Positions 4,433 through 37,794 of a DNA stretch of 37,934 nt are shown here, piece by piece. Each line of letters starts with the position of its first letter. The first letter of the stretch is position 1. This DNA is from Planctomycetota bacterium. Lineage in GTDB: Bacteria > Planctomycetota > UBA8742 > JACQVU01 > JANLHZ01. The notes under the pieces were generated by a model. It was not told where the DNA came from, did not search any database, and worked only from the letters and a program-made list of their open reading frames with translations. A program made the position numbers and the translations under genes. The stretch lies in contig JANLHZ010000012.1 in the NCBI GenBank assembly GCA_024653775.1, forward strand, positions 1 to 37,934, read 5' to 3'.

Positions 4433-4692
4433 TTATTTAAACCCTCGCTATCATACGTTATTGAAAACACTTTCATTGCTCCCAAGCTGTTCTAAAATTG
4501 ATTATAAATTTAGACTTAGCCTTAGTCGTAATCTTTTAAGGCGATAAAACAATATATTTTATACTTATTACATAATTAATAGCTTACCAGTTATCGTTTT
4601 TTACTCGAAAATAAACTGCTGGAGAAAATGAACATCGTGGTCTGTAAACCCGAAAAGAGCTATCATATGATATACTTACTATTTGACATAAA
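4433..4692. other. AT-rich 260-bp segment bounded by inverted repeats
   Basis: No convincing gene is present. The segment is far more AT-rich than its surroundings and lies between inverted copies of a TAATGCCAC-containing block (4406-4432 and 4693-4719). It could be a small insertion within a repeat, a matrix of promoters, or a remnant. No open frame in it has normal codon use. Confidence 0.5.
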
Positions 4693-5839: not shown

Positions 5840-8317
5840 TCACCTGCCGGAGGGCGTCGAAGGCGTCGGCGCCACAGGATTATCCGGCCTCGACGACGCT
5901 CCGTAAATTCCGAAAAGAACCTCGACGAGTCGGGTGGCGTAAACCTCCGCGTCCGCGGGAACGATTCCGACGCAGCCGGGCGAAGGATGACCTTCGAGCG
6001 CGCGGGCGAGATCGAACTCGCAGAACACTATTGCAAGCTTTCCATCGACTTCGAGACCGCGTGGGTAGAACCCGCGCAGCCTGCTGTCGCGGCTGTCGAT
6101 TCCGCGGAACTCGAGCGTAGGAACGAGCGCGCGCAGATCGCCTTCGCGTTCGATGTTCCTCCACGACGTGCCCGCGATGCGCGGAAGGATCGCCTGCGCG
6201 CTGCGCTGGAACTCCCAGGAGCCGCCGCTACCGAAGACGATGAGCTTTCCGCCGGCGCGGACGTATCGCGTCAGATTTTCCGTTTCTTCGGGAGTCAGTT
6301 GCAGCTCGTCGTTCGAGGCGAGATAGAGCGCGTCGAACTCGCCGACGCGGGGACTCGACGCTGCGACGTTCTCTTTCGCTACGCCGAACGAATGCCCGCT
6401 CGCATTAAGCAGCGTCACAAGATGCTCGAGATCGCGATGGTTCGTTTCCGCGTGGTTCGCGAGATCGAGCCGCGCGACGTTCTTCGAGTTTCCGCTTGCG
6501 ACAGGCGCGTCGATTGGCATAGGCGGAGCAAGCCTGTGCCAGACGCCGCCGCTCTTTGCGACGTAGCTTATCGCGTTCGTCAGGATTGCGCGTCCGATGG
6601 GACTCTTGCTTTCGTCGCTCGAAAGCGACGTCCGGCTCATGACGATCAGCGGGCGGAATTCGTCGGAGATTCCGACGAGAGTTCCCCGCGCGTCGCCGCG
6701 CAGCGCAGACGGTCCTTCGTAGATCGGGTCGGAGCTTTCGAAGGCGCGCATCCTTCGCTCCGGGAACATGTGCGCGGCGAGGGCGCGGAAATTCCGCACG
6801 AATTCGACGCTGTCGTCCTGCGGCTCCGCAAGTATCGTTCCGCCGTTTTCGACGTATGCGCGCATCAGTTCGATCTGTGTCTCGCTGAACACCGGGCCGT
6901 TATGTCCGGTGACGTAGCACACGGGAGCTTCGAGAAGTTCGCGCAGGTTCGCTTCACTCGCGTTCGCGTACTGGAAGTGCGCGTCCGGGACGATACCCGC
7001 CTCTTCGAGTTCCGCGATCACGGGCACGATCGTCGACGGCCCGGGGTTCCACCAGTCGTTCTCCCAGCGGAGTTCCTTCACGAGCACCGGAGCGTTCGCT
7101 CGTCCGAGGAACAAAAGCGCAAAGCTGGTGTCGTGGGTCTTAGCGAAGTCCGTCCCAGCGTCCGCCGTCGAACACCAGAAACCCTGTGGGTCCTGCTTTT
7201 CGAGGATGTATCCCGCGCCTTCGAAATACCACTCGTGGTCACCGAAGCTGCGGAGTCCTGAAAGTATGCCCACGCGCTCCATGCTGTAGAGGTAGTAGTA
7301 GTTCCAGTTGGCGCTGACGTTCGCGCCGCGCTCGACCTCGAAATGTTCCGCGAGCCAGCCGAGGCCAAGGTCGGCCTGCGTCCCCGCGAACGGATTCGGG
7401 CCGAGCACCGGTCCCGCGCCAGCCGCCTGATTCGCGCCGCCGAGGACGAAAAGACTCGAAAGTCCCGCGCAGGTCATGCTTCCGGTGCCGCGGCTGCTTC
7501 GCTGACGATAACCCCAGCTTCCATCGCGAACCTGAGTCGAATAGAAGTGAGCCAGCGCGCGGTTTTGAACCTCCTGATCGACTGCGACCCCCGCCTCGAT
7601 TCCAGCCTGTAGCCCGAGAACGGCGAACTGCGTGTTCGAGTTGTCGCCCGGAAGGTCGGCCTGCTGCGTGGGCTGCGCGCGCTCGCCTTCACGATTCCCG
7701 CGCCCTTCCCGCTGGCCTTCGCGGGCCGTCTCGGGCGCGTTCTGCCCGCCTGCGAGCGCTTCGCGAAGCTGTTCTTCGCTGTAGGGACCGTAGCTCCACA
7801 TTCCGTGGGGATACTGGTTCGCCTCGAGCTGTCGCACGGAAGCCTCGATCGCGGCGCGGTATGCTACTGGGTCGAGTTCGTTCAGCGCCTGCGCTCTGAG
7901 CGAGGCGTCGTAAGTCTGGGTCGAAGGATTCGCCACGAGGTACTGCGCGGCGAGGTCCATCGCGGTCTTCGCCTGCGTCGCGATGGCCATCGAATCGTCT
8001 ACCGCGTAGGCGAGCGCAAAAGTCGCAAGCGCGGTGAGTCCGACTTTGTGCTGCGTGCCGAAGCTTCCGTCCTCGAGCTGCTGGGACAGAAGAAAAGCGA
8101 CTCCTCGTTCGATCGCGCCTTCGACCGCCTCTACCGTGATTCCCGGATTGTCGTCCGCGAAGATGTCCTGCCCGTCATCCTCCGCTGCCGGCGGAGCGTC
8201 GTCGTCCTTCGCTGCAAGCGGCGCGCCCAAATCATTGTCGCGCCCAACGGCCATCGAGGTCGCGAAAACGGAAATCGAGAACAGACAGACGCTAAGCAGA
8301 ATCAACTTCTTGTTCAT
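5840..8317 (-). CDS. Secreted alpha/alpha-toroid plus DUF4159 domain protein
   Basis: The ATG at 8317 follows a strong GGAGG and begins a signal peptide (MNKKLILLSVCLFSISVFA). An in-frame start 18 codons upstream is less likely. Residues about 50-410 form a squalene-cyclase/prenyltransferase-like toroid with repeated motifs (LEDGSFGTQHKVGLTALATF, DGSWGYRQRSSRGTGSMTCA, DPQGFWCSTADAGTDFAKTH). About residues 430-600 resemble DUF4159 (YVTGHNGPVFSETQIELMRA, YVENGGTILAE). A second related Rossmann-like segment, about 620-790, has FDALYLASNDELQLTPEE and a glycine-rich AGGKLIVFGSGGSW. A serine/proline tail ends the protein. Such proteins are common in planctomycetes and relatives. The function is unknown and probably periplasmic. 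Confidence 0.85.
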   Translation of the reverse strand: MNKKLILLSVCLFSISVFATSMAVGRDNDLGAPLAAKDDDAPPAAEDDGQDIFADDNPGITVEAVEGAIERGVAFLLSQQLEDGSFGTQHKVGLTALATFALAYAVDDSMAIATQAKTAMDLAAQYLVANPSTQTYDASLRAQALNELDPVAYRAAIEASVRQLEANQYPHGMWSYGPYSEEQLREALAGGQNAPETAREGQREGRGNREGERAQPTQQADLPGDNSNTQFAVLGLQAGIEAGVAVDQEVQNRALAHFYSTQVRDGSWGYRQRSSRGTGSMTCAGLSSLFVLGGANQAAGAGPVLGPNPFAGTQADLGLGWLAEHFEVERGANVSANWNYYYLYSMERVGILSGLRSFGDHEWYFEGAGYILEKQDPQGFWCSTADAGTDFAKTHDTSFALLFLGRANAPVLVKELRWENDWWNPGPSTIVPVIAELEEAGIVPDAHFQYANASEANLRELLEAPVCYVTGHNGPVFSETQIELMRAYVENGGTILAEPQDDSVEFVRNFRALAAHMFPERRMRAFESSDPIYEGPSALRGDARGTLVGISDEFRPLIVMSRTSLSSDESKSPIGRAILTNAISYVAKSGGVWHRLAPPMPIDAPVASGNSKNVARLDLANHAETNHRDLEHLVTLLNASGHSFGVAKENVAASSPRVGEFDALYLASNDELQLTPEETENLTRYVRAGGKLIVFGSGGSWEFQRSAQAILPRIAGTSWRNIEREGDLRALVPTLEFRGIDSRDSRLRGFYPRGLEVDGKLAIVFCEFDLARALEGHPSPGCVGIVPADAEVYATRLVEVLFGIYGASSRPDNPVAPTPSTPSGR

Positions 8318-10426: not shown

Positions 10427-10548
10427 TGTCACTCCGTTTTGCGTGGGCGAACTGTGTAATTTCAGATCTCAGATTGAACTTCTGCATTTTCTCACCACTC
10501 GCCACTCGCCACTATTCCGCCTCCTAAATACGATTAGTCGCGGCGAGC

Positions 10549-10737
10549 GTTAGGGCCTGTAAAATAATAAGTTGCCTAAAATCGCGCTCAGATTTATGTC
10601 GGGTTCGCTGCGCGCAAGGAAGCAAAACCGGAGGCGTATCTGTTGCTACGGCGAGGATTTTGCGACTGAGCGCGAAGTGAAAATGGCGTGAAGATGGGAT
10701 GCGAGATAGGTAAGTTATTGTTTTACAGGGCCTTAGC
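10549..10737 (+). repeat. ~190-bp palindromic element, copy A
   Basis: The left arm (TTAGGGCCTGTAAAATAATA) and right arm (ending ATTGTTTTACAGGGCCTTAG) are complementary over about 25 bases. The core carries conserved blocks: AAAATCGCGCTCAGATTT, then ACCGGAGGCG, then GGCGTGAAGATG, then ATGCGAGATAGG. It has no coding capacity and sits between two divergent genes. The outer arm sequence differs from the other copies but remains self-complementary. Confidence 0.85.
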
Positions 10738-15849: not shown

Positions 15850-15879
15850 CACGGTAGCTTCGATCTGCGACCGATCGAA

Positions 15880-16067
15880 CCTAAGGACGCGCAATGAAAT
15901 AAGTCGTACAAAATCGCGCTCAGATTTGCGTCAGGTTCGATTTGATCGAGGAAGTCAAAACGGAGTCGTAGCCGTAGTTCCGATGAGTATTTGACGACCG
16001 AGAGCAAAGTGAAAGTGGCGTGAAGATGTGATGCGAGATGTATTAGTTATTTCCTTGCGCGTCCTAA
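15880..16067 (+). repeat. ~190-bp palindromic element, copy B
   Basis: The left arm TAAGGACGCGCAATGAAATA and the right arm (reverse complement TTAGGACGCGCAAGGAAATA) pair with each other but differ from the arms of copies A, C and D. The core blocks AAAATCGCGCTCAGATTTGC, GGAGTCGTAGC, GGCGTGAAGATGTGATGCG are conserved. It fills the gap between two convergent genes. Confidence 0.85.
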
Positions 16068-18921: not shown

Positions 18922-19304
18922 GCATAATTATAGATACGCAGGCACTGCTCTGGTTTTTGCTCGACGATCCGAGATTGAGCGAGAAAGCAAGAATTCGCAT
19001 AGAAACCGAGAGCGATCAGGTTTTTGTCAGTCCCGCCAGCCTTTGGGAGGTCGCAATAAAGGTCAGTCTCGGAAAGTATTATCTTCCGATAGCTTTCGAG
19101 GAGTTCTGGCAAAGCCAGCTTTTCATAAATTCGTTCGCGATTCTTCAAATATCGATCGATCACACGGGCAAAGTCGCCATTCTTCCATTTCATCATCGAG
19201 ATCCATTCGATAGATTGATCATTGCACAAGCGCTTGTGGAAGACTTTCCTGTGGTAAGCATCGACGAAATGTTCGACAAATACGATGTAAGCAGAATATG
19301 GTAA
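18918..19304 (+). CDS. vapC: PIN domain ribonuclease toxin, VapC type
   Basis: The product is a 128-residue PIN domain. Acidic metal-binding residues are seen as D6 (IIIDTQALLW), E44 (SPASLWEVAIK), D95/D98 (HHRDPFDRLIIAQA) and D116 (VVSIDEMFD), the complete set for this subgroup (COG3744-like). Such toxins cleave tRNA or other RNA when freed from their antitoxin. Translation starts at a GTG overlapping the antitoxin stop. The TGG-TAA end contains the ATG of ligA, so the pair and ligA may be co-transcribed, an unusual linkage of a toxin to an essential gene. Confidence 0.88.
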   Translation: MSIIIDTQALLWFLLDDPRLSEKARIRIETESDQVFVSPASLWEVAIKVSLGKYYLPIAFEEFWQSQLFINSFAILQISIDHTGKVAILPFHHRDPFDRLIIAQALVEDFPVVSIDEMFDKYDVSRIW

Positions 19305-21367
19305 ACCACGCCCCGAAAATAAACTCCTGGAAAGACGAGCGCGATCCCGCGAAAGCCGCGGAACTGCTGCGCGAGTTCATCGGGTTTCATAACGAGCGCT
19401 ACTACGTCGATTCCGCGCCGCTGATAACAGACTTCGAGTTCGACGCGGCGCTACGGGACTTGCAGGCTATCGAGAAGGCGCATCCTGAGCTTATCAGCGC
19501 CGATTCGCCGACGATGAAGGTCGGTAGCGATCTGCGCAAGGGATTCGAGACCTTCGCGCACAAACTCCCGATGATGAGCATCGACAACGGATACAATCGC
19601 GAGGACATCGAGAGCTTCCTCGGGCGGGTCTACAAAGAGCTTGGAACCAAAGACGTCACATTTACCTGCGAGCCGAAGATCGACGGCGTCGCGATCAGCC
19701 TCTGGTACGAAAATGGAGAACTCGTCCGCGCAGTCACACGAGGCGACGGCACCGTAGGCGACGTCGTCACCGCGGGCATCCGCGAAATCGGACCGATCCC
19801 GCACGCGCTCAAAAAGCCGCAGGGCGCGCAGCTCCCGAAGGTGCTCGAGGTCCGCGGCGAGATATATTTCCCGCTACCGAGTTTCCGCCGGGTGAACGCG
19901 CGCCGCGAGGAGGAGGGCTTGCAGCCTTTCATGAATCCGCGCAACGCGTGCTCGGGGACTCTCAAGACACTCGACGTAAGCGTCGTCCGCGAACGCGAAC
20001 TCGGCGCCATCATCCACGGCGTAGGCGTCACGGAAGGATTCACCGCCAGCGATTTCAGCCTTGCGCTCGAGCTGTTCGCCAGGATGGGCCTGCCAATAAC
20101 GAAAGAAATCGACAAGCGAAAAACGCTCGACGAAATCTGGGACTACATCGAATCATTCGACAAGAAACGCGAAAAGCTCGAGTACGAAACCGACGGCGTC
20201 GTCATCAAGGTCGACAGCCTGAAGCAGCGCGACACCCTCGGCATGCGCTCGAAGTCGCCACGGTCGATGATGGCGTTCAAATATCCGCCGCCGGAGGTGG
20301 AGACGGTGCTTCTCGATATCGAAATCCAGGTCGGGAGGACGGGAAGGCTGACGCCGCGGGCGGTGTTCGAACCCGTGATCGTCAGCGGTACGAAAGTCAC
20401 CCACGCGAGCCTGCACAACAAGGATTACATCGAAGAGAAGGACATCCGCGTTAATGACCACGTTCTGATCGCGAAGGCGGGTGAGATCATTCCGCAGGTG
20501 ATCCGCTCGCTACCGGAAAAGCGCACGGGAGAGGAGCGTGTTTTCAAATATCCGGAGACCTGCCCTTCCTGCGGCGGTCCGGCGGTGAAGGACGCGGGCG
20601 AACTCGTCGCGATCCGCTGCGTTAACCCGAAGTGCCCCGCGATAGTCCGCGAAAAAATCATCCACTTCGTTTCGCGGGACGCAATGGACATATCGGGTGC
20701 GGGGGAGAAACTCGTCGACGCACTCGTGGAATCCGGGCTTGTGACGGAGGTTTGCGATCTTTACGATCTGACGGAGGAGCAGGTTGCAGAGCTTCCGCGG
20801 ATGGGCGCGAAGAGCGCGAAAAACCTCATCGATGGAATCGCGGCGAGCAGGAAGAAATCGCTCGCGGAATTGCTCGTCGCGCTCGGGATTCCGTACGTCG
20901 GCGAAAAAGCCGCGGAAATTATCGAGGCGCAGTACGAGGACATCGACAAGATACGCGCCGCGACCGCGGACGAGATCGCGGAGATCGAACAGATGGGGCC
21001 GATAATAGCGGAGTCGGTTCATAAGTTCTTCGCGGACGACGGCAACTGGGCACTCGTAGAAAAACTTCGCGCGCGCGGAGTCAGCGTGACGCGCAGCGCG
21101 GAGAAATACGCGACTGTCGCGGTCGAAGGCGTGGCTGGAAAATCATTCGTGCTGACGGGCACCCTCGCGAACCGCGGACGGAAGGAGATGGAGGACCTGA
21201 TAAAGAAGGCGGGCGGCAAATGCTCGTCGAGCGTTTCGAAAAAGACCGATTACGTCATCGCGGGCGAAAACGCGGGCTCGAAGCTCGAAAAGGCCGAAAA
21301 ACTCGGCGTGCAGGTCCTCACGGAGGAGCAGGCGGTCGCGATGCTTGGAATCACGGGCGTTCCTTGA
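19298..21367 (+). CDS. ligA: NAD-dependent DNA ligase
   Basis: LigA seals nicks in DNA during replication and repair using NAD. It has the N-terminal Ia region (HNERYYVDSAPLITDFEFDA), the adenylated lysine in CEPKIDG (K127), the oligonucleotide-binding fold, a four-cysteine zinc finger (CPSCGG, CVNPKCPA), helix-hairpin-helix repeats and a C-terminal BRCT domain. At 689 residues it is full length. The ATG overlaps the end of vapC. The final 118 bases exist a second time at 23336-23452, beyond the three-gene minus-strand module. The two copies differ at about eight positions plus one deletion, so the present 3' end may be a replacement. Confidence 0.97.
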   Translation: MVNHAPKINSWKDERDPAKAAELLREFIGFHNERYYVDSAPLITDFEFDAALRDLQAIEKAHPELISADSPTMKVGSDLRKGFETFAHKLPMMSIDNGYNREDIESFLGRVYKELGTKDVTFTCEPKIDGVAISLWYENGELVRAVTRGDGTVGDVVTAGIREIGPIPHALKKPQGAQLPKVLEVRGEIYFPLPSFRRVNARREEEGLQPFMNPRNACSGTLKTLDVSVVRERELGAIIHGVGVTEGFTASDFSLALELFARMGLPITKEIDKRKTLDEIWDYIESFDKKREKLEYETDGVVIKVDSLKQRDTLGMRSKSPRSMMAFKYPPPEVETVLLDIEIQVGRTGRLTPRAVFEPVIVSGTKVTHASLHNKDYIEEKDIRVNDHVLIAKAGEIIPQVIRSLPEKRTGEERVFKYPETCPSCGGPAVKDAGELVAIRCVNPKCPAIVREKIIHFVSRDAMDISGAGEKLVDALVESGLVTEVCDLYDLTEEQVAELPRMGAKSAKNLIDGIAASRKKSLAELLVALGIPYVGEKAAEIIEAQYEDIDKIRAATADEIAEIEQMGPIIAESVHKFFADDGNWALVEKLRARGVSVTRSAEKYATVAVEGVAGKSFVLTGTLANRGRKEMEDLIKKAGGKCSSSVSKKTDYVIAGENAGSKLEKAEKLGVQVLTEEQAVAMLGITGVP

Positions 21368-21821
21368 CGGATTCGTACGGTGGGAAAATAACCCAGTTGC
21401 ACCGTTCCTTCATAGCTTGCTTAACCTTGACTTTCTTTCCGTCAATGCCGACTTTCTTATTCTTGTCGCCGTAAACGTTGCCGTGATCGTCCCGAAGTTC
21501 TCCCTTCGTTGGACCGTCGTGAATGACTTGCTGTTCCAGTTGTCGACAGAGTCCAAATGACAGAGAAACAAGACCAACATGGTCCTGAAGCATCGCATGC
21601 TCTGTTTTGAGTTTCATCGCTATCAATGCCCGCTCTATCGAAACAGACATATCTATCAGACCAAATGTGTAAGACGCTGGTTTAATTGGAACTCCGCGCG
21701 CTTCTTCGTAGTTTCCCATGTTTGAAGAATTGTAAGTGTCTATGAACATTTTTCGATGGACTGACCGAAAGAGCCGATCATCCTGGTCGAAGTCTTTGAT
21801 AACGTCGATTTTGGAAGTCAT
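21351..21821 (-). CDS. Third gene of the TIGR04255-type module, unknown function
   Basis: The 156-residue product has no signal peptide or membrane span and matches no family I know. It contains SYTFGLIDMSVSIERALIAM in the middle and a lysine-rich stretch (GDKNKKVGIDGKKVKVKQAM). Its ATG directly abuts the stop codon of the preceding gene, so the two are co-translated. Its stop codon lies just inside the end of ligA, on the opposite strand, exactly where the duplicated ligA sequence ends. It may be the effector or an accessory of the module. Confidence 0.65.
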   Translation of the reverse strand: MTSKIDVIKDFDQDDRLFRSVHRKMFIDTYNSSNMGNYEEARGVPIKPASYTFGLIDMSVSIERALIAMKLKTEHAMLQDHVGLVSLSFGLCRQLEQQVIHDGPTKGELRDDHGNVYGDKNKKVGIDGKKVKVKQAMKERCNWVIFPPYESVKERP

Positions 21822-22442
21822 TTACTTTTTTCGTCTGTGGTTCAGCCACTTTTGAGAACGTCTACGCTCGCGGAACTTCGAGAGATATCGCTTGTTCAGT
21901 TCTTCAAAACTCGATACATCTTCGCTTTCCGAATGTCCGGTTTCTTCGTCGTGGAAATAAACGTCGAACGCATCGTCGCCTACGACTTCGACTTCCAGTT
22001 CCACGCCGTACAGACTCCAGCAAAAGCCGATTGTTCCGCTTCCGGTCGGGACAGGCTTGGGCAAAGGAACATTCGCCTCCAGCAGCTTCACAGTAAAGGC
22101 TTTCGCGGGTCCGATGCTCACGGGATTGGTGCCCCTTCCTCCATACCCATCCCACCCGTCTTCTAGACCCTCGATTTCCGCAAGTGTACGTTTCATTTCT
22201 TCTTGTGACTTATACTCTGGGACGTCATTCATTGATAGCGAAGGACAATAGTCGCTGAAATTCATTAGTGTCGCGCCGCTGGCGATGTATCCAGCAGTCC
22301 AATCTTCCCTTCCCAAGTCGCGTACAATAGGCGCGCCGGGAATAAAATCGCCCACGCTGAAAGCGTAGGCATTGCTCTCGTTTTCTGTCGGCTGAAGAAT
22401 GATAAAAACTTCGGGTCGCTGCACTTGTAGAGCTACTCCCAT
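21822..22442 (-). CDS. Module protein with GWDGYGG motif, unknown function
   Basis: The 206-residue product contains LAEIEGLEDGWDGYGGRGTN (about residues 98-117), a motif of the type LxxGWDGxGA that I know from many small uncharacterised accessory proteins. The C-terminus is basic (KFRERRRSQKWLNHRRKK). The ATG at 22442 overlaps the stop of the upstream TIGR04255-type gene by ten bases. An ATG 17 codons earlier would lie deeper inside that gene and is less likely. The gene is the middle one of three, with overlap or zero spacing on both sides. Confidence 0.65.
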   Translation of the reverse strand: MGVALQVQRPEVFIILQPTENESNAYAFSVGDFIPGAPIVRDLGREDWTAGYIASGATLMNFSDYCPSLSMNDVPEYKSQEEMKRTLAEIEGLEDGWDGYGGRGTNPVSIGPAKAFTVKLLEANVPLPKPVPTGSGTIGFCWSLYGVELEVEVVGDDAFDVYFHDEETGHSESEDVSSFEELNKRYLSKFRERRRSQKWLNHRRKK

Positions 22443-23260
22443 AGGTTGTGTGCCTCCTCGGTAATAGATTCGCGAAAAACTCTTCCAAGCCACTTATTTG
22501 CGCGTCTGAAAAAAGAAACCGCTCCGTCTATCGGATGGTCGCTTAAAGGCGCTCCTCTCGCTACATTGTTGACGATCAGAGCTTGTTCCCGCGAAGAAGC
22601 AAGTATCGCCGGATTTATTTGCGTTGTTATCCGCGCTATCGGCTTAGATTCGGAATCCCGCACCAGAAACGAGAAATTCGTCTGTAAAACCTCGAAACAT
22701 ATACTGTCGGCAAAATGATCGGTATCCACTTGCATTTCATTGTCGAAAACGGCTGCGATTTTGAACACGCTTTTCGCGTCGCTGAATTCCTTGAAAATGT
22801 TCTTTTCCAGAATGCGACTTACATACTCAGTTTCACACTGAATCGTTCGGATATCTCCGATACCGTTTGTCTTCACGAATTCCCTGAACTTGACGAGCAG
22901 ATCTTTAAAGCTCTCAAGCATCGGCTCGAACCTGGGATACATTTCATCCCCCTGATCGTTTCTCATCCAATTAATGGCGAAGCCGTCGCCTTGCACCTGG
23001 ATTACCCGCGTTTTCGACTCGTTCATTAACCAAAATCTACAGGGACTCGCTGGCTGCAGAATCTTCTGCGGCTCGATAACGTTGTCGAAACTTTCAACAA
23101 TGAAAGCTCTAGGATTCTTGATCGAAGTGACTGGATAATCACCACGAACTATGTCCCAAAACTTTGGGAGCAAGATTTCTTTGGATGGGTCGAGACGCTC
23201 GAAGTACACCGACAGCACAAGCTCCTGTACCGGAGGATGAGTTAGATGGTGCTCGCCCAC
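22433..23260 (-). CDS. TIGR04255 family protein
   Basis: The 275-residue product begins LTHPPVQELVLSVYFERLDP, the PPVxEVVL-type start of the TIGR04255 family. It ends with PIDGAVSFFRRANKWLGRVF, then EAHNLWE, matching the family's closing helix. Members are sporadically distributed in bacteria and their function is not established. It is the first gene of a tightly packed three-gene operon inserted between ligA and a duplicate of the ligA 3' end. Codon use is more AT-rich than in ligA, consistent with transfer. A defence or toxin-antitoxin role is possible but only inferred. Confidence 0.8.
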   Translation of the reverse strand: MGEHHLTHPPVQELVLSVYFERLDPSKEILLPKFWDIVRGDYPVTSIKNPRAFIVESFDNVIEPQKILQPASPCRFWLMNESKTRVIQVQGDGFAINWMRNDQGDEMYPRFEPMLESFKDLLVKFREFVKTNGIGDIRTIQCETEYVSRILEKNIFKEFSDAKSVFKIAAVFDNEMQVDTDHFADSICFEVLQTNFSFLVRDSESKPIARITTQINPAILASSREQALIVNNVARGAPLSDHPIDGAVSFFRRANKWLGRVFRESITEEAHNLWE

Positions 23261-23335
23261 GATTGTTCCCCTGCGACTTTGTTTACCCCGCTTGAACTTT
23301 AGCTTCCGACATCATGTGTGTCAACTCTCCTCATC

Positions 23336-23452
23336 TCGAAAAAGATCGATAACGTCATCGCGGGCGAAAACGCGGGGTCGAAGCTCGAAAAGGCCGAAAA
23401 ACTCGGCGTGACGATCCTCGCGGAGGAACAGGCGGTCGCGATGCTTGAATCA
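23336..23452 (+). pseudogene. ligA: Duplicated 3' end of ligA
   Basis: This fragment matches 21236-21353 with about eight substitutions and a one-base deletion near its end. Translated in the ligA frame it keeps [20 protein letters not shown], but the highly conserved KKTDYV has become KKIDNV. It has no start and is too short for a domain. Together with the ligA end it brackets the three-gene module. It is probably the displaced original end of ligA. Confidence 0.9.
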
Positions 23453-23898: not shown

Positions 23899-25893
23899 TT
23901 GCACGAGCACGAACTTGACCATGAAGAGATAACCATCGGTCAGCTTGCCGTCAGGCTCAAGTACTTGACGAGGCAGCAGCTCGACGTCGTGCTCGAAGAC
24001 CAGAAAGGCCGCGCCGCGCAGGGGCAGCCCGCGGAGAAGTTCGGCGAGGTCTGCAAGCGCCTCGGCTTCCTGCGCGACAAGGACATCGATCAGCTCCTTT
24101 CCACTCAGGTCAAGAAGTCGAAGGCTGCGGACGTTCAGGGCTATCAGATTCTCGACAAGCTCGGCCAGGGCGCGATGGGAAGCGTCTACAAGTGCCTCCA
24201 CGTCGATTCCGGCGAGATCCGCGCAATGAAAGTTCTTACGCCGAATCTCGCGAAAAACGAAAAGCTCGTCGCGCGTTTCCACCGCGAAGCGCGGATCACG
24301 ATCGCGATCGACCATCCGAACATCGTAAAAGGCTACGAGGAAGGCACTTACCACGGCACCCACTACTTCGTGATGGAGTACATCGCTGGGATGACAGTGA
24401 AGGACAAGCTGAAGGACATCGGCACATTCAGCGAGGACGAGACCTGCGCCATCGGCATCCAGATCGCTCACGCGCTGCACCACGCGTACCAGCAGGATCT
24501 GATCCACCGCGACATCAAGCCCGACAACATAATGATCCTAGGCGACGGGCGCGTGAAACTGCTCGACCTCGGCCTTGCGAAGGAAACGAACGTCGACAGC
24601 ACGCTCACGATCGCAGGCGCGACCATGGGCACGCCTTACTATCTTTCGCCCGAGCAAGCCCGCGGCGTCGCGGATATCGACATCCGTACCGACATCTACA
24701 GCCTCGGCGCGACGCTGTTCCACATGGCCTGTGGCGAGGTCCCTTTCGGCGGCAAGAATGCGATTCTCGTCGTCCAGAAACATCTGCACGAGCCGGTGCC
24801 AGACCCGCGCATTTTGAATCCGGACCTTAGCGACGCGTTCTGCGAAATCATTTTCACCTCGATGGAGAAAGAGCGCGAAAAGCGATACCAGACTCCACGG
24901 GAGATGCTTAAAGCGCTCGAAGCGCCGTTCGTCAAGGAGGAAGGACCGGAACTCCTTTCGCCCGAGGAGGCGGACCAGCTCTTTGGTAGAATGTCGGGCG
25001 CGGGGAAAAACACTGAAAGCAAGGGAAGCGCTGTGCTGCTTTCACCGCTCGAGGCGATTGCGCTGCTCGAACAGCGCGGCGACGCGCTCGCATCGGGCGT
25101 TTTCGATCTCGACACGATAATGAAGACTCCCGCGAGGAAGGCTCCGGAACCACGGAGTGGGTTCGATGGAGACGAGGAAGATCTTTTTGACGACGGCCCG
25201 AAAAAGCCGTCAGCGAAGAAATCCCGCGAAAAAAAGACTCTCAAGAAGTCCCGCGGCGGGCCGCCTCAGCCGGAAGCTCCGAAATCCTCGTCGCGGGCGG
25301 CTTCTGAAAAGCCGAAGAGTTCGGGCGACCCGATGCGCGACAGGGTGGAGCGGATGCGCGAACGCAGCCAACGCAGAAGCAGGATTTCGAGCAGAGCGGA
25401 CCAAAACGGCGATCAGACAACCTGGAGAGAGACAAAACAGAGTTTTCGGGAAGCCTGGGAACTGATCACTTCCCCGTTCAAGAAGAAATCAGGGAAAAAG
25501 AAGACGTTTCAGTCGAAATCGCAACGCATCGTGAACTCCCTCGACTCGGACAGCATCTACGAAATGCTTGATAGTGACGAAGCAATCGATCGCGAGGACG
25601 CGGCGTTCCTGATCGCGGAGAAAGGCGACAAAAAGGCGCTTCCGGAAATGACCCGGCTGCTTTCGGACGAGGACAAAGACGTCCGCCTCTGGGCGCTTTA
25701 CGCGGCGGGAAAACTTGCCGACTACACCGCGATACCAGAAATAGTGCCTTCGCTCTACGATGACGATGTCTTCCTGCGCTACGTGGCGCATAAAACTCTT
25801 TGCGAAATAACCGGCAAAAGCCTCGGACGCAACCACCTGAGCTGGATGAACCTTTACAACAGGTTGAAGAAGAACGATTTATCTGACAAGTAG
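23899..25893 (+). CDS. Ser/Thr protein kinase with T2SS-ATPase-like N-terminus and HEAT repeats
   Basis: The 664-residue protein starts with TTG at 23899; no in-frame ATG lies before the N-terminal domain. Residues 10-75 hold two short repeats like the N-terminus of type II secretion ATPases (LAVRLKYLTRQQLDVVLEDQ, FGEVCKRLGFLRDKDIDQLL). The kinase domain runs from about 81 to 345: GQGAMGSV (89-96), K111, HRDIKPDN (203-210), DLG (223-225), GTPYYLSPEQ. A charged, low-complexity linker follows, then HEAT-like repeats from about 550 to the end. There is no membrane span, so it is cytoplasmic. Its last 55 codons or so are duplicated twice downstream, behind each cargo gene. Confidence 0.93.
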   Translation: MHEHELDHEEITIGQLAVRLKYLTRQQLDVVLEDQKGRAAQGQPAEKFGEVCKRLGFLRDKDIDQLLSTQVKKSKAADVQGYQILDKLGQGAMGSVYKCLHVDSGEIRAMKVLTPNLAKNEKLVARFHREARITIAIDHPNIVKGYEEGTYHGTHYFVMEYIAGMTVKDKLKDIGTFSEDETCAIGIQIAHALHHAYQQDLIHRDIKPDNIMILGDGRVKLLDLGLAKETNVDSTLTIAGATMGTPYYLSPEQARGVADIDIRTDIYSLGATLFHMACGEVPFGGKNAILVVQKHLHEPVPDPRILNPDLSDAFCEIIFTSMEKEREKRYQTPREMLKALEAPFVKEEGPELLSPEEADQLFGRMSGAGKNTESKGSAVLLSPLEAIALLEQRGDALASGVFDLDTIMKTPARKAPEPRSGFDGDEEDLFDDGPKKPSAKKSREKKTLKKSRGGPPQPEAPKSSSRAASEKPKSSGDPMRDRVERMRERSQRRSRISSRADQNGDQTTWRETKQSFREAWELITSPFKKKSGKKKTFQSKSQRIVNSLDSDSIYEMLDSDEAIDREDAAFLIAEKGDKKALPEMTRLLSDEDKDVRLWALYAAGKLADYTAIPEIVPSLYDDDVFLRYVAHKTLCEITGKSLGRNHLSWMNLYNRLKKNDLSDK

Positions 25894-25936
25894 GCTCTTT
25901 GCCTTTCTACGCATGCGAAATTTTTACAAAATTATC

Positions 25937-25968
25937 TTGTGTGTGTGTGTGTGTGTGTGTGTTAGAAT
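25937..25968 (+). promoter_or_regulatory. Candidate promoter with (TG)12 spacer, upstream of cargo A
   Basis: TTGTGT (25937-25942) and TAGAAT (25963-25968) could serve as -35 and -10 boxes. The 20 bases between them are almost wholly TG repeat, in total 12 units at 25938-25961. The paralogous promoter at 27354 has ten units and 16-base spacing. Change in repeat number would shift the spacing around the optimum of 17. Confidence 0.45.
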
Positions 25969-26024
25969 TTTCTCCGTAACAAAAACAATCAGTTCTTGAA
26001 GTCTTGTTCGCGGGAGAATTCGAC

Positions 26025-27071
26025 ATGAAAATTGAAGCTCTATCATTGACCTTACTCGTGGCAATCCTGCATTTCGGAGTCATTCAAGTCGCGAACGCGC
26101 AATCCTCACTTCCACCTGGCGGTGTGCAGGGTATTCCCATTAACCCTGGGGATGGAGGTCCTGCTAACGGGATCGCTATCCAGTTTCGAAATGACACTGG
26201 TCAGGATATTTCCGACATCACAATTACGATTGCGACAAGGGTGAACCCGACTAGTATGAATCCCATTGTGTTTGAAGTGAACACTGCTGGCGATTTTCAG
26301 TTCGTCCTACCTGATAAATCTAGAGGTACCGTCGCCGGAAACGGAACGACGAGGTTAAAAGTCAAAATCGGTAACTCTAGCGAAGTCGTGGCTCCCGGAG
26401 ATACATTTGGCATTTTATTTCATTTCAACGAGGATGTCGAGCTTGGAACGGAACCGTTGCCGATCCGATACGCGGCCACAAATCGAAATGGAAATACAAT
26501 CTATGCTGCCGTTGGTATTTTTGGTCCTGTTTCAGAATTCGTACTTCCACAAGACGAAACTAGCCCGCAAGTCAAGTTTATTAACAACACGTCGCAGCAA
26601 ATAAGGGGTGTTGAAATCAGAACCGATCCGTCGCAAACACTTCTGACCGACTTTCTCTATGCGGGGCCTTTTTCCACAATTGTTCAGGAGAATTGGGGTA
26701 GCGTGATTCTGGAAATTCCAGAAGGTGCGCCATTTGTCAACCCTGGGCAGGAGTTCAGCTTCGATCTATTTCTTCCGGATGAGTCTAGGTTGCCGGGAGA
26801 TCAACAGAAGTTCGTCTTCATCTGGAATTTTGTAGATAAGGATGATGATGGAGAAGACACAGAAGAGATAGAATGTCATACGGTTTTCGATTTTTTACTG
26901 TTCGTATTTATCGTACTTGTTATCGGTTTGATCATTCTGTTGATTTTATGGATCGCCGGAGTTAACCCTCAAGCAGTCAGAGTCGCCGCGCTCGTTCTTC
27001 TTTCGCAACTTCTCGTCGTTGGCGTAATTCTGCTGATAATAGGGATTTCCTGCGGGATTCTCGTTACGTGA
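26025..27071 (+). CDS. Exported membrane-anchored protein, cargo paralogue A
   Basis: The ATG at 26025 has GGGAGA upstream. The product (348 residues) begins with a signal peptide (ALSLTLLVAILHFGVIQVAN, cleavage after ANA). Two similar beta-rich domains follow, each ending in a PGxxFxxxxxF pattern (APGDTFGILFHF, NPGQEFSFDLFL). An acidic linker (DKDDDGEDTEEIECHT) leads to two membrane helices joined by the loop WIAGVNPQAVRVAAL. The C-terminal helices are nearly identical to those of paralogue B, while the beta domains have diverged strongly. It lies behind the kinase gene. The function is unknown; surface display is plausible. Confidence 0.75.
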   Translation: MKIEALSLTLLVAILHFGVIQVANAQSSLPPGGVQGIPINPGDGGPANGIAIQFRNDTGQDISDITITIATRVNPTSMNPIVFEVNTAGDFQFVLPDKSRGTVAGNGTTRLKVKIGNSSEVVAPGDTFGILFHFNEDVELGTEPLPIRYAATNRNGNTIYAAVGIFGPVSEFVLPQDETSPQVKFINNTSQQIRGVEIRTDPSQTLLTDFLYAGPFSTIVQENWGSVILEIPEGAPFVNPGQEFSFDLFLPDESRLPGDQQKFVFIWNFVDKDDDGEDTEEIECHTVFDFLLFVFIVLVIGLIILLILWIAGVNPQAVRVAALVLLSQLLVVGVILLIIGISCGILVT

Positions 27072-27132: not shown

Positions 27133-27149
27133 TACTTACTAAGCCGCCA

Positions 27150-27310
27150 CCCCGGAAATAGTGCCTTCGCTCTACGATGACGATGTCTTCCTGCGCTACG
27201 TCGCGCACAAAACACTCTGTCAGATTACTGGTAAGAGCCTTGGCAGGAACCATCTAAGCTGGATGAATCTTTACTCAAGGCTGAAGAAGAACGATTTATC
27301 TGACAAGTAG
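27150..27310 (+). pseudogene. Second copy of the kinase 3' end (mosaic)
   Basis: In frame, this fragment reads PEIVPSLYDDDVFLRYVAHK and on to SRLKKNDLSDK and stop, matching the kinase C-terminus with only two changes. Many silent differences from the kinase cluster in the middle of the fragment, where it equals the third copy. Its end and the following 3' region, up to and past the TG repeat, equal the kinase copy. It has no start and no upstream kinase sequence. Confidence 0.9.
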
Positions 27311-27353
27311 GCTTTTTGCCTTTCTACACATGCGAAATTTTTACAAAATTAAC

Positions 27354-27381
27354 TTGTGTGTGTGTGTGTGTGTGTTAGAAT
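27354..27381 (+). promoter_or_regulatory. Candidate promoter with (TG)10 spacer, upstream of cargo B
   Basis: TTGTGT (27354-27359) and TAGAAT (27376-27381) are separated by 16 bases of TG repeat, ten units in all at 27355-27374. The surrounding sequence is nearly identical to that before cargo A, apart from the repeat count. Confidence 0.45.
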
Positions 27382-27436
27382 TTTCTCCGTAATCAAAGCA
27401 ATCAATTTTTGAATTCTTGTTCGCGGGAGATTCGAA

Positions 27437-28444
27437 ATGAAATTCAAAGTTCCTGTCGTGATTCTGTCGTTCTTGGTGACATTTCTGGGCTTGACGCAGT
27501 CCGTGATTGCCCAGGCTACACCTGTTCCGCGCGGCGGCGCTCCGTTCACTTTCGGCTCCGGAACAGGTGCCGCGCCGGGAGTAAATTTTCTCTTTCGAAA
27601 TGCCTCTGGCAGAAGATTCGCCGACATTTTTATCGTGATTTTATTGCACCCCAATCCCACGTTGCGAATGGTGGACTTTGAAATGGTAGGCGTCGAAACC
27701 GAAATCGACGGTTCAGATTTTCCGAATCAAGAAGTACACATCAATATTAAAGACGTAAACGGGTACATTGACGATGGGTCTGAATTCGAAATCGTCCTTA
27801 CCTTGAACGCCGATGTTCCCGTGCCGAATTCGCTGCCGATGTGGATATACGGCACTAACGATAAAAACCAGGTATTGGGAAAACTGATCGCTCTCGATAG
27901 CGAACAAAAGGTCCATGAGGTCGCGCCGTACGTCACGAGTGGTGACCACCCAATTCTTAACGGCACCGGACACCCAATTAAGGCACTTGAAATTGAAGTT
28001 CCCAATCAGTTAGTTGATCCGAATTCAATTTATAGCGGTCCATTTCAAAGACTTGAAATCATAACTTTGAGCAGATTCAGGCTCGAAATGGCTCCTGGTC
28101 AATTTATATTGCCAGGGCAGGAGTTTGGAGTAGGCTTTTCCTGGAGTACCATGGGAGGATATGGGCTGGGAAGTCCACCGCAGCAGATTAACTTCAATTC
28201 TGAGTTTGGGGATGAAGATAACGGTGATGACGGCGAGGAAGTTGAATGTCGAACCACCTTTGATGTCTTTTTATTCATATTTGTTGCAATATTTTTCGGA
28301 CTGATCGTTTTACTGATACTATGGATCGCCGGAGTCAACCCTCAAGCAGTCAGAGTCGCAGCGCTTGTTCTCCTGTCACAGCTTCTTATCGTTGGCGTCG
28401 TCCTGCTTATTATAGGAATTTCATGTGGAATAATCTTCACATGA
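27437..28444 (+). CDS. Exported membrane-anchored protein, cargo paralogue B
   Basis: The 335-residue product has the same design as paralogue A: a signal peptide (VPVVILSFLVTFLGLTQSVI, cleavage after AQA or nearby), two beta-rich domains (DDGSEFEIVLTLN, LPGQEFGVGFSW), an acidic linker with one cysteine (DEDNGDDGEEVECRT) and a two-helix C-terminal membrane hairpin. The loop WIAGVNPQAVRVAALVLLSQ is identical to A. The N-terminal domains have diverged so far that only spacing and a few motifs remain. GGGAGA precedes the ATG. It is enclosed between the second and third kinase-tail copies, which points to duplication of a tail-plus-cargo unit. Confidence 0.75.
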   Translation: MKFKVPVVILSFLVTFLGLTQSVIAQATPVPRGGAPFTFGSGTGAAPGVNFLFRNASGRRFADIFIVILLHPNPTLRMVDFEMVGVETEIDGSDFPNQEVHINIKDVNGYIDDGSEFEIVLTLNADVPVPNSLPMWIYGTNDKNQVLGKLIALDSEQKVHEVAPYVTSGDHPILNGTGHPIKALEIEVPNQLVDPNSIYSGPFQRLEIITLSRFRLEMAPGQFILPGQEFGVGFSWSTMGGYGLGSPPQQINFNSEFGDEDNGDDGEEVECRTTFDVFLFIFVAIFFGLIVLLILWIAGVNPQAVRVAALVLLSQLLIVGVVLLIIGISCGIIFT

Positions 28445-28509: not shown

Positions 28510-28676
28510 GCGCGATACCAGAAATAGTGCCCTCGCTGTACGATGACGATGTTTTCCTGCGTTACGTCGCGCACAGGACACTCTGTCAGATTACTGGTAA
28601 GAGCCTTGGCAGGAACCATCTAAGCTGGATGAATCTTTACAATCGGCTTAGAAAGACCGCCGACGGTTCGAATTAG
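28510..28676 (+). pseudogene. Third copy of the kinase 3' end, probably the original tail
   Basis: In frame it encodes PEIVPSLYDDDVFLRYVAHR and on to NLYNRLRKTADGSN and stop. The body matches the kinase C-terminus, but the last residues and the 3' flank differ from copies one and two. Differences from the kinase gene are mostly silent. It lies next to the long AT-rich region before groEL, and is best read as the kinase end that existed before the cargo arrived. Confidence 0.85.
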
Positions 28677-34813: not shown

Positions 34814-34859
34814 ACCGATGAACACAGATTTTTTCACAATCGCAGCATCGATAAAATTA

Positions 34860-34985
34860 ACCCCGTCAGGGGTGAAATGTTTGTAGCAAACAGTGCGGAT
34901 GAATGAGTAAAGCCCCGGAGGAGCGATATGTTTGTAGACGAGAACCAAAACTCCGCAAAAGCCCCGTAGGGGCGATATGTTTGTA
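34860..34985. repeat. Three spaced GCCCCGTAGGGGCGATATGT-type repeats
   Basis: Three related units start near 34861, 34912 and 34961, about 50 bases apart. Each has a short CCCC-GG dyad followed by ATGTTTGTA. The minus strand gives 'YKHIAP' peptides, a common spurious translation. Unit divergence and unequal partial matches argue against CRISPR. Confidence 0.75.
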
Positions 34986-35073
34986 AGCGCTTTTCAAAAA
35001 TCTTTGCAGGAAGCAAAGAAACGAGAAGTTAGTAATACAGAGGATTTGAACCACAGATGGACACGTATGAATT

Positions 35074-35134: not shown

Positions 35135-35758
35135 ATGGAAAACTCACAGGAACATAGCGAAAACGTCGAGCAGACTCCGGAGGAGACTTCCGCGGAAGAG
35201 CCGCAGGAATCTCCGGAGGAGAAGACGCGCCGGGAGCGAGAGGAGCTTCTTTCGAGTCTTCGCGCACTTGACGATGGCGCGCTGCTCGCGCTTTACCGAG
35301 AGGCGCATGAAGCCGCCTCGATGAAGGACCTCGCGCAGCGAACGAAGGCGGAGCACGAGAACTATAAGCGCAGATCGCAGACGGAACGCGAGAGCTGGTC
35401 GTTCATCTATCGAAAGGACGCGGTGCTCGCGCTGCTTCCCGTGTTCGACAATTTCGAGCGCGCGCTTTCGCATCACGCCGAGACGAAGACCGACGAGGAG
35501 CGTGAATTCCTCGCTGGACTCGAAGCTCTGGCTGACCTCTGGAAAGCCGCGTTCAAGAACCTTGGCGTAACGGAAATCGACACGGATTGTCTCTTCGATC
35601 CGAACCTTCACGAAGCCGTGACAAGTCTTGATGTCGCGAATGTTCCGCCGGGGACCATTGTATCCGTGTTCGAAAAAGGGTATAAACTGAAGGACAAGGT
35701 GATTCGCGCCGCCAAAGTCCAGGTGGCGAAGGCTCCGGAGGAAAAGCCGGAAGAATAG
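35135..35758 (+). CDS. grpE: Nucleotide exchange factor GrpE
   Basis: GrpE releases ADP from DnaK. The 207-residue product has an acidic N-terminus, a long helix (about residues 28-90) and the C-terminal beta domain, with LLPVFDNFERAL, FDPNLHEAV and the closing signature PGTIVSVFEKGYKLKDKVIR. The final KVIRAAKVQVAK departs from the family's RPAKV at one residue; the duplicated tail at 37454-37517 has the conserved proline. This suggests the present end was acquired with the PRTase/DprA insert. No Shine-Dalgarno is visible. Confidence 0.95.
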   Translation: MENSQEHSENVEQTPEETSAEEPQESPEEKTRREREELLSSLRALDDGALLALYREAHEAASMKDLAQRTKAEHENYKRRSQTERESWSFIYRKDAVLALLPVFDNFERALSHHAETKTDEEREFLAGLEALADLWKAAFKNLGVTEIDTDCLFDPNLHEAVTSLDVANVPPGTIVSVFEKGYKLKDKVIRAAKVQVAKAPEEKPEE

Positions 35759-35802
35759 CTAGGCAGAGTAATCATTTAGCTTCAATAATTGAGGTTTAAG
35801 AC

Positions 35803-36426
35803 ATGCAGAAGTTTAAAATTAAATCAAATTGCTATTTAAACAGAGACATTCAGGCCTATTATAATACAGATTATGTCGGTTTTCGTGAACCTGGGAATCC
35901 CGACTATATCAACACGCTAAAGAATATTCTTAACGACTGCGCACAAAATAAACTGAAATCAGCAGTTCAAGAATTGACAAACGTGCTGTTATCTGATATG
36001 AAGGCTTTAAGCGCGTCGTCACACTCAAATTCACTAATCGTTTGTGTTGTCCCGCGGGCAAAAGCGGAAAGTAATTATCATGCAGACCAGCTATTGTTCA
36101 AGTCAACCGTTCAAAAGGTTGTAAATCGCCTCGATAGTTTAGTAGACGGCACAAGCTATATCTGTCGTCATACGGACACAAAAACAACCCATATTAATAA
36201 GCCTCTCCGGGGTTTTTGTAACGAAGGGCGGAAGCCGTACCCTGGCATTACTGCCGATACCTGTACGATTATTTCGGATCGTTTGAACTCCGCTGATATT
36301 TTATTAATCGATGATATTTACACGAAAACAGTTAATATTGATGAAGATGCAATCCAAGCTTTGCTCGACATAGGAGCGCGTTCTGTCGTCTTTTATTCCG
36401 TTGGGCTAACGAAGAGAGATCGCTGA
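35803..36426 (+). CDS. Phosphoribosyltransferase-like protein, partner of DprA-like protein
   Basis: The 207-residue product has the PRPP-binding loop motif ADILLIDDIYTKTVNIDEDA near residues 165-184, in which two acidic residues follow a hydrophobic strand as in ComF and other type I phosphoribosyltransferases. The N-terminal part (about residues 1-110) is unfamiliar, with one strand-like segment (NSLIVCVVPRAKAE). TTGAGG lies 12 bases before the ATG. Codon use is AT-rich compared with grpE. It is followed after nine bases by the DprA-like gene, and the pair is bracketed by the grpE end and its duplicate. A nucleotide-signalling or DNA-uptake-related role is possible. Confidence 0.75.
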   Translation: MQKFKIKSNCYLNRDIQAYYNTDYVGFREPGNPDYINTLKNILNDCAQNKLKSAVQELTNVLLSDMKALSASSHSNSLIVCVVPRAKAESNYHADQLLFKSTVQKVVNRLDSLVDGTSYICRHTDTKTTHINKPLRGFCNEGRKPYPGITADTCTIISDRLNSADILLIDDIYTKTVNIDEDAIQALLDIGARSVVFYSVGLTKRDR

Positions 36427-36435
36427 AACTCTGCA

Positions 36436-37443
36436 ATGTATGGACGACTTATGAAGTATTTGGAGAAAGCAATCAATGTTTTAGCGGCTAAAACCTACAA
36501 GGGCATAGGCAGGGCGTGGATTGTTAAAAACATGAGGGGCAACGAATCGGTGGATGTCATCGTTTCTTTGCTGAACAAAAGTTTAGGGATGGATAACCAA
36601 ATAGCGCGGGATGATTTTGAAATGAAAAGAGAAATCATTAGGCAAGAAATTCAAAAATTAAGAGGGTTCGCGGATGGAGTTGTTGCGATAGGCGATGAAG
36701 ATTTTCCACGCTACAGAGGGAATGTAAAAAACAGCGATCAGCCAATCGCCATTTTCTACCGTGGCGAATTGGATTTATTGAAAATCGGGAATAAAAATAT
36801 TGCTGTTATTGGTTTGCTTGATCCAGGCTGCGACACCGAAACGATAGAAAAAGAAGTTGTCGCCGAATTTATAAAGAGAGGTGTTACTATTGTTGGTGGC
36901 TTGGCTTTAGGGTGCGATTCCATCGCGCACCGTCAGGCGCTGCTTTCGAGTGGAAAGACAATTGCCGTTCTTCCCGGTCCATTGAATAATATTCTGCCGA
37001 AGGCAAATGTGAATCTTGCAAACGAAATTGTGGAGAAAGGAGGTTTATTGATTTCTGAGTATTATCGGGATGCCATATCTAAAATGGAATTAAGAGGCAG
37101 ATATCAGGAGCGGGACAGACTGCAAGCTTTGTTTAGCGACTGTGTTGTATTGTCGGCAAGCTATGCAAAGAACGATCATGGACTCGATAGCGGATCGAGA
37201 CTTGCGATGGAGTTCGCCATGAAGTATTCTATACATAGAGCCGTTCTTTATGATCCGATCGCAAACGCTAACAGCCCAGAGCATGAGTTGAACAGGCAAA
37301 TAATAAAGGATGACGAAGATGTGATTACCGTTAACCGAAACAATTTACACCATAGTATAAGTAAAGTAGTCGCGTCGCACTTCGCTGCGAGTAAAAGTCT
37401 GAAATACCAAAAAGAGTTATTCGATATAGTTCAACCTATCTGA
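36436..37443 (+). CDS. DprA/Smf-like Rossmann protein
   Basis: The 335-residue product carries the DprA signature in order: NKNIAVIGLLDPG, GVTIVGGLALGCDSIAHRQA, GKTIAVLPGPLNNILPKANV and KGGLLISEYYRD. Classic DprA has SGxARGID at the second site, so the GLALGCD variant has lost the arginine. DprA proteins load RecA on incoming single-stranded DNA, while related SLOG-fold proteins bind nucleotides in conflict systems. Here the pairing with a phosphoribosyltransferase, the AT-rich codon use and the location in an insert favour an accessory function over competence. An in-frame ATG five codons later is an equally possible start. Confidence 0.85.
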   Translation: MYGRLMKYLEKAINVLAAKTYKGIGRAWIVKNMRGNESVDVIVSLLNKSLGMDNQIARDDFEMKREIIRQEIQKLRGFADGVVAIGDEDFPRYRGNVKNSDQPIAIFYRGELDLLKIGNKNIAVIGLLDPGCDTETIEKEVVAEFIKRGVTIVGGLALGCDSIAHRQALLSSGKTIAVLPGPLNNILPKANVNLANEIVEKGGLLISEYYRDAISKMELRGRYQERDRLQALFSDCVVLSASYAKNDHGLDSGSRLAMEFAMKYSIHRAVLYDPIANANSPEHELNRQIIKDDEDVITVNRNNLHHSISKVVASHFAASKSLKYQKELFDIVQPI

Positions 37444-37453
37444 TTATTAGGGG

Positions 37454-37517
37454 CAAGGTGATTCGCCCGGCGAAGGTGCAGGTGGCGAGGGAGCCTACGG
37501 AGAAGCAGGAAGAATAG
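37454..37517 (+). pseudogene. grpE: Duplicated 3' end of grpE, probably the original tail
   Basis: In frame it encodes KVIRPAKVQVAREPTEKQEE and stop, compared with KVIRAAKVQVAKAPEEKPEE at the end of grpE. Thirteen of 63 bases differ, about half of them silent. The stop codon lies one base before the fmdB ATG, an operon-like spacing, and it keeps the conserved proline of GrpE. It is therefore read as the native grpE end that was cut off by the insert. Confidence 0.88.
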
Positions 37518-37518
37518 T

Positions 37519-37794
37519 ATGCCGACGTACGATTATCAATGCCAGCAGTGCGGACACGCGTTCGAGAAGTTCCAGAAGATGTCGGAATCCGTGCTGAAGA
37601 AATGCCCCGAGTGCGGCGAACGCGCGCTCAAAAGACTCATGGGCACTGGCGCGGGAGTGATCTTCAAGGGCAAGGGTTTCTGGCAGACGGATTCGAAAAC
37701 GAAAAAGGCCGCGCCTCCCGCGAAATGCGACGCGATCACGGACGGAAGCGCCCCCGCGACACCATGCGCGTCCTGCCCCGCGGCTAAGGAATAG
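37519..37794 (+). CDS. FmdB family zinc-ribbon protein
   Basis: The 91-residue product begins MPTYDYQCQQCGHAFEKFQK and has a second pair CPECGE, the CxxC...CxxC ribbon of the FmdB putative regulator family. GTGAGVIFKGKGFWQTD follows, as usual. The C-terminus is alanine- and cysteine-rich (CDAITDG, CASCPAAKE). The molecular role of the family is not well established. Its ATG is one base after the duplicated grpE tail, so it was probably in one operon with grpE before the PRTase/DprA insertion. Confidence 0.9.
   Translation: MPTYDYQCQQCGHAFEKFQKMSESVLKKCPECGERALKRLMGTGAGVIFKGKGFWQTDSKTKKAAPPAKCDAITDGSAPATPCASCPAAKE

Follow-up and report, generated by a model that had tools for sequence, protein, structure and literature searches.

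It is not settled how defence and toxin-antitoxin (TA) genes travel from one genome to another when they carry neither a transposase nor an integrase. Integration by a recombinase that targets gene 3' ends normally restores the 3' end of the target gene and leaves repeats of 20-100 nt. The original papers on insertion with long target duplication are Nobusato 2000 and Furuta 2010, and the references for ShosTA, the PRTase-DprA anti-phage system, are Kimelman 2012 and Rousset 2022. According to three reports, restriction-modification genes insert with long and variable target duplications of about 100 bp (PMC3874152, PMC3031569, PMC1643837). ShosTA is a described toxin-antitoxin pair, and a PRTase/DprA pair defends E. 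coli against T7 and lambda (Rousset 2022, PMC9122126).

The window analysed here, a whole stretch of 37,934 nucleotides from a Planctomycetota bacterium (contig JANLHZ010000012.1), carries an insertion behind grpE. The host gene grpE (35135-35758, plus strand; Pfam GrpE 1.6e-37) ends in a 67 nt tail, the proximal copy (copy A, 35692-35758, plus strand), that is repeated directly at 37451-37517 (copy B, the distal copy, plus strand). The two copies are identical at 53 of 67 positions (79%), lie in the same frame and end with the same TAG; the proximal tail translates as DKVIRAAKVQVAKAPEEKPEE and the distal tail as GKVIRPAKVQVAREPTEKQEE, each followed by the stop. A search of the bacterium's own genome with the proximal copy found these two places only (distal copy E 1e-9) and no third copy. 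The duplication proposed in the first-pass annotation is thus real, with each copy beginning 3 nt upstream of the starts given there (35695 and 37454). The insert is flanked by direct repeats of the target-gene end, of the order of 100 bp in length, as in insertion with long target duplication. The fmdB-type zinc-ribbon gene (37519-37794, plus strand; Zn_ribbon_8 2.8e-18) starts one base past the stop of the distal tail at 37517, as had been noticed, and its likely Shine-Dalgarno sequence, AGGAAGA at 37507-37513, lies inside that tail. The GC content of the insert is 41%, versus 58% in grpE and 53% downstream, which bears out the AT-richness relative to both flanks.

In most of 29 loci from the same phylum, fmdB follows 1-59 nt past grpE. 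As members of the phylum usually have these two genes side by side, the distal junction seems to be the native one, and the cargo appears to be a later addition that split an old grpE-fmdB adjacency, as first suspected. The ShosTA-type cassette would have been inserted at the 3' end of grpE as a unit of grpE tail plus cargo, ahead of the tail that still adjoins fmdB; grpE would be left complete, and fmdB would retain its ribosome-binding site inside the grpE tail. The kept junction with the likely fmdB ribosome-binding site agrees with the earlier view that the distal copy is the native one. The other argument for that view, that the RPAKV of the distal copy is the conserved form and the RAAKV of the proximal copy is not, fails: about 13 relatives have R-P at this position and 14 have R-A, and because both are about equally common the residue is not diagnostic. 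The nearest relative, which belongs to the same order and has a grpE about 36-39% identical, reads GYRLGDVLIRPAKVKVAKSKA, mixing features of both copies. Neither of the two collections searched contained a relative from below the rank of order, hence none that could show an empty site or the donor state; no donor tails were found.

Two genes make up the cargo behind grpE. The second (36451-37443, plus strand, start picked from homologues) encodes a DprA-like antitoxin candidate that falls into the ShosA family, matching PADLOC ShosA at 2.2e-44, Pfam DNA_processg_A at 8e-35 and the solved ShosA chain 9vzo at 8e-22; the distal grpE tail begins 7 nt past its stop codon. The gene adjoining it on the upstream side (35803-36426, plus strand) encodes a PRTase-like toxin candidate with the motif ILLIDDIYTKTVNIDED. 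Its match to the PADLOC ShosT profile is weak (5.9e-6), no Pfam family matches above the cut-off (PRPP synthetase appears at E 0.16 only), and its structure model is poor (pLDDT 39); it is 58% and 50% identical to the PRTases of DprA pairs in loci L078 and L077, respectively. Homologues of both genes stand side by side, with the gene order unchanged, in a complete genome from this phylum (G251, 58/62% identity) and on a Synechocystis plasmid (50/55% identity), and so the pair appears to be conserved and mobile. The cargo is predicted to be a ShosTA-type phage-defence toxin-antitoxin pair whose ShosT member matches weakly, and it would probably function as published for ShosTA, with a PRTase toxin held by the DprA-like antitoxin and freed upon infection. 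Like ShosTA, it has a PRTase-like gene followed by a DprA-like gene and a strong ShosA match; unlike ShosTA, its toxin matches the ShosT profile weakly, it sits behind grpE instead of in a P2 hotspot, and its activity is a prediction. The expectation that PRTase/DprA pairs elsewhere also follow grpE is contradicted by the two known close relatives, neither of which lies behind grpE or has a tail repeat: the pair in G251 is behind an IS transposase and that on the Synechocystis plasmid is behind a HAD gene. A ShosTA variant specific to grpE is ruled out by these contexts. The closest plasmid relative (L077 2405-5975, Synechocystis sp. PCC 6714 plasmid pSYLB) is near an Abi-family gene. No ShosA was found in viral contigs.

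The grpE insertion is not the only one of its kind, a recurrence that the first-pass annotation had missed. A scan for local direct repeats showed that many of them end at stop codons. A controlled survey covered 1.5 Mb, about 28% of this one fragmented genome (331 contigs), with a home-made gene caller; for 709 called genes the last 150 nt were compared with the downstream 8 kb. Before curation, 21 of 630 genes had a tail match downstream. The controls gave 9/648 for gene heads matched upstream, about 6-7 for mid-gene segments (6/630), 6 for heads matched downstream and 7 for tails matched upstream, counts that include tandem paralogues such as two groEL genes. In other genomes (a Rhizobium replicon, mixed genomic loci and 50 kb of E. 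coli) 2 of 515 tails matched, versus 21/630 here (Fisher 0.0002). Removal of paralogues, low-complexity cases and two tandem arrays left 15 tail events, so that the surveyed 1.5 Mb holds at least 15 tail-flanked insertions of AT-rich cargo; the whole genome is estimated to hold 50 or so, some of them nested. With at least 15 similar insertions in the examined part, it seems that defence and toxin genes accumulate in this bacterium through such events. Head-type cases number 3 to 6 according to the way of counting, which puts p for the preference of tails over heads between 0.004 and 0.05. Examples of these counterparts, in which a gene start is repeated upstream of the insert, are L083 2702-2798 / 7246-7342 and L140 3783-3874 / 4560-4651. 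A scan of 221 kb of short loci from relatives, too short for a fair test, gave no clear tail case. The signature, a gene end repeated past a foreign insert, lends itself to scans of any genome and points to the entry route of the cargo.

The repeated tails are 24-132 nt long, 12 of the 15 end at most 15 nt from the stop codon, and the members of a pair are 79-97% identical (3-21% divergence) with no core common to the events. The host genes include ligA, grpE, groEL, lepA, ruvB, hsdM, a radical SAM gene and a molybdopterin dehydrogenase gene. The cargos, 0.4-7 kb in size, are lower in GC than their host genes in all 15 events (mean 0.48 versus 0.60). They include ShosTA, HEC-02, HEPN/MNT, a full type I restriction-modification system, Fic, PIN and DUF5615 proteins, a ParE-like gene with HSDR_N, and PemK with a D12 methyltransferase; as a raw count, 9 of the 15 contain TA, restriction or defence genes. 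One case is nested (L143 6675-15056, minus strand): hsdM and hsdS are separated by a HEPN/MNT pair. The overlap of the distal hsdM tail with the start of hsdS has been kept, and the reading frame of MNT continues across this tail into hsdS. An upstream oxidoreductase gene has in turn lent its tail as the flank of the entire 7.2 kb type I restriction-modification system that contains this pair. Behind lepA (L177 8057-10411) is an AT-rich three-gene cargo with no Pfam match, the third gene of which has a weak PADLOC match of the LmuA / metallo-beta-lactamase type; this cargo is possibly an undescribed defence system.

A joining of two strain variants of one locus end to end during assembly could imitate such loci, given the 331 contigs and tail pairs that resemble alleles. 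This reading is scarcely credible, as there is no N at any junction and most tail pairs have no long exact block at the would-be joining edge; such an artefact would, moreover, show no preference for stop codons or for AT-rich defence cargo.

The window itself contains further repeated tails. The NAD-dependent DNA ligase gene ligA (19298-21367, plus strand; Pfam DNA_ligase_aden 5e-78) is the host of a second tail-duplicating insertion: its proximal tail (21236-21347, plus strand) is 92.9% identical to the distal tail (23336-23447, plus strand), and between them lies a 2 kb AT-rich cargo (21368-23335, 48% GC) with three minus-strand ORFs and no Pfam match. A tandem array follows. The tail of a Ser/Thr kinase gene (23899-25893) together with 147 nt downstream (25721-26040) recurs at 27138-27452 and, after the second paralogous cargo gene (27437-28444), at 28511-28659, all on the plus strand. 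The three copies set apart two paralogous membrane-protein genes, and copies 1 and 2 differ by 16 synonymous versus 2 nonsynonymous codons (16/18 synonymous). Real arrays of this kind, here with repeats starting at 25721, 27138 and 28511 and paralogous cargo genes between them, and another at L091, are what would remain if gene and cargo had been duplicated in tandem and the second copy of the gene then mostly lost; both copies would in that case have diverged while coding. If the loss were random, however, remnants of every size would be expected, and none of 200-600 nt was seen among the 15 non-array tails. In about half of the 15 events, the distal tail begins at most 8 nt past the stop codon of the last cargo gene, which also argues against such a history; for the non-array insertions it is very unlikely.

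An element integrated by a tyrosine or serine recombinase that targets gene 3' ends, its enzyme gene lost or acting in trans, would have the tails as attL and attR. The restored gene end with a tail copy on the other side is the usual product of such integration and is what these loci share with tyrosine-recombinase elements. The differences are that the inserts are cargos of 0.4-7 kb with at least 15 different target genes, that the repeats are imperfect and without a common core, and that the cargo genes scanned yielded no integrase; the whole genome has four tyrosine recombinases (PF00589), none of them in an insert. Nor does the folding of the tails support a recombinase site: the distal grpE tail folds no better than its shuffles (z -0.1), as do most other tails, the ligA and L138 tails folding somewhat in the same comparison. 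An integrative element is thus an unlikely explanation. Integron gene cassettes offer a partial parallel, being short genes with a repeated site of 40-140 nt at the 3' end that sometimes stand in series. Here, unlike in integrons, the site is the tail of the host gene and differs from locus to locus, and no palindromic attC folding is seen at grpE.

Whether the tails had diverged before the insertion can be judged from the kinds of difference between them. In the coding tails of the 15 non-array events, 48 codons differ synonymously and 43 nonsynonymously; 62 of the 108 differences are at third positions, and no stop is introduced. Local duplication was simulated with the proximal copy constrained and the distal copy drifting freely, which led to an expectation of about 38 synonymous versus 59 nonsynonymous codons; none of 300 runs reached the observed value. 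Constraint on both copies at w 0.2-0.3 fits the counts. Single loci are weak in this respect: grpE alone gives p 0.05, and the ligA pair alone (2 synonymous, 5 nonsynonymous) fits drift. The pooled synonymous excess in both copies suggests that the tails had diverged before insertion, two diverged alleles being brought together, and hence that one tail probably came with the cargo. The first-pass annotation had proposed that the end of grpE was replaced by the insert; an imported tail is indeed favoured by the counts pooled over the 15 loci. It had also used the tail pair to date the insert, which does not hold. Across the 15 events tail divergence is unrelated to the GC content of the cargo (rho 0.11, p 0.69), and so it is not an age scale of the insertions; grpE has the most diverged tails of all and yet the most AT-rich cargo.

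The same data bear on a possible, if doubtful, alternative in which the act of inserting duplicated some 40-130 nt from the end of the recipient's gene, after which the copies drifted apart; gene tails would be seen most because only such insertions are harmless. The anatomy and the length of the order of 100 bp match the Helicobacter restriction-modification cases described in those reports (PMC3874152, PMC3031569, PMC1643837). Among the cargos is one complete type I restriction-modification system, duplications of the head type occur in a few places, and the ligA pair taken singly behaves as drift predicts. Against this stand the pooled differences, with more synonymous changes than a distal copy under free drift should show, the lack of relation between tail divergence and cargo amelioration, and the grpE pair, only 79% identical though its cargo is still the most AT-rich.

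The best explanation of the whole, to which we assign a probability of roughly 0.5, is import of a diverged tail together with its cargo, integration by homology within the tail, and a ShosTA-type function of the grpE cargo. The repeats and their recurrence, the preference for gene tails, the low GC of the cargos and the excess of synonymous differences are observations, from which these three points are inferred. The cargo would come from a related strain whose sequence had diverged and would bring that strain's version of the gene tail along; incoming or circular DNA would then recombine within the tail by a RecA-type process, so that the cargo would enter with no integrase of its own. ComEC is present in the genome, which makes DNA uptake conceivable. 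RecA-driven integration leaves unexplained the origin of the first tail-flanked copy and the clustering of tails at 40-130 nt. More tentatively, these could be integrase-free mobile cassettes in which the end of the host gene serves as the recombination site; a unit of cargo and host-gene tail might pass from one related strain to another through homologous recombination, restoring the gene on entry, and be kept by TA addiction.

Within the open-access literature, insertion with long target duplication is the closest precedent for these loci. In both, defence-type genes that lack a transposase lie between direct repeats, roughly 100 bp in size, of target sequence. The insertions described here differ in carrying mostly TA, defence and unknown genes (a full restriction-modification system is present in 1 of the 15 events only, and the grpE cargo is ShosTA-like, not restriction-modification), in being anchored at gene 3' ends, in their frequency of about ten per Mb in one genome, and in copies that look diverged before insertion.

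Two other kinds of repeat were observed. A 176 nt direct repeat in the window (10544-10719 / 15876-16051; 74% identity, 5.3 kb apart) is accounted for by no gene tail. The dnaJ-grpE intergenic region (34859-34986) has three spaced copies of AAxCCCCGtAGGGGcGAtATGTTTGTAG, and similar palindromic GC repeats also follow stop codons in loci L138, L154 and L177.
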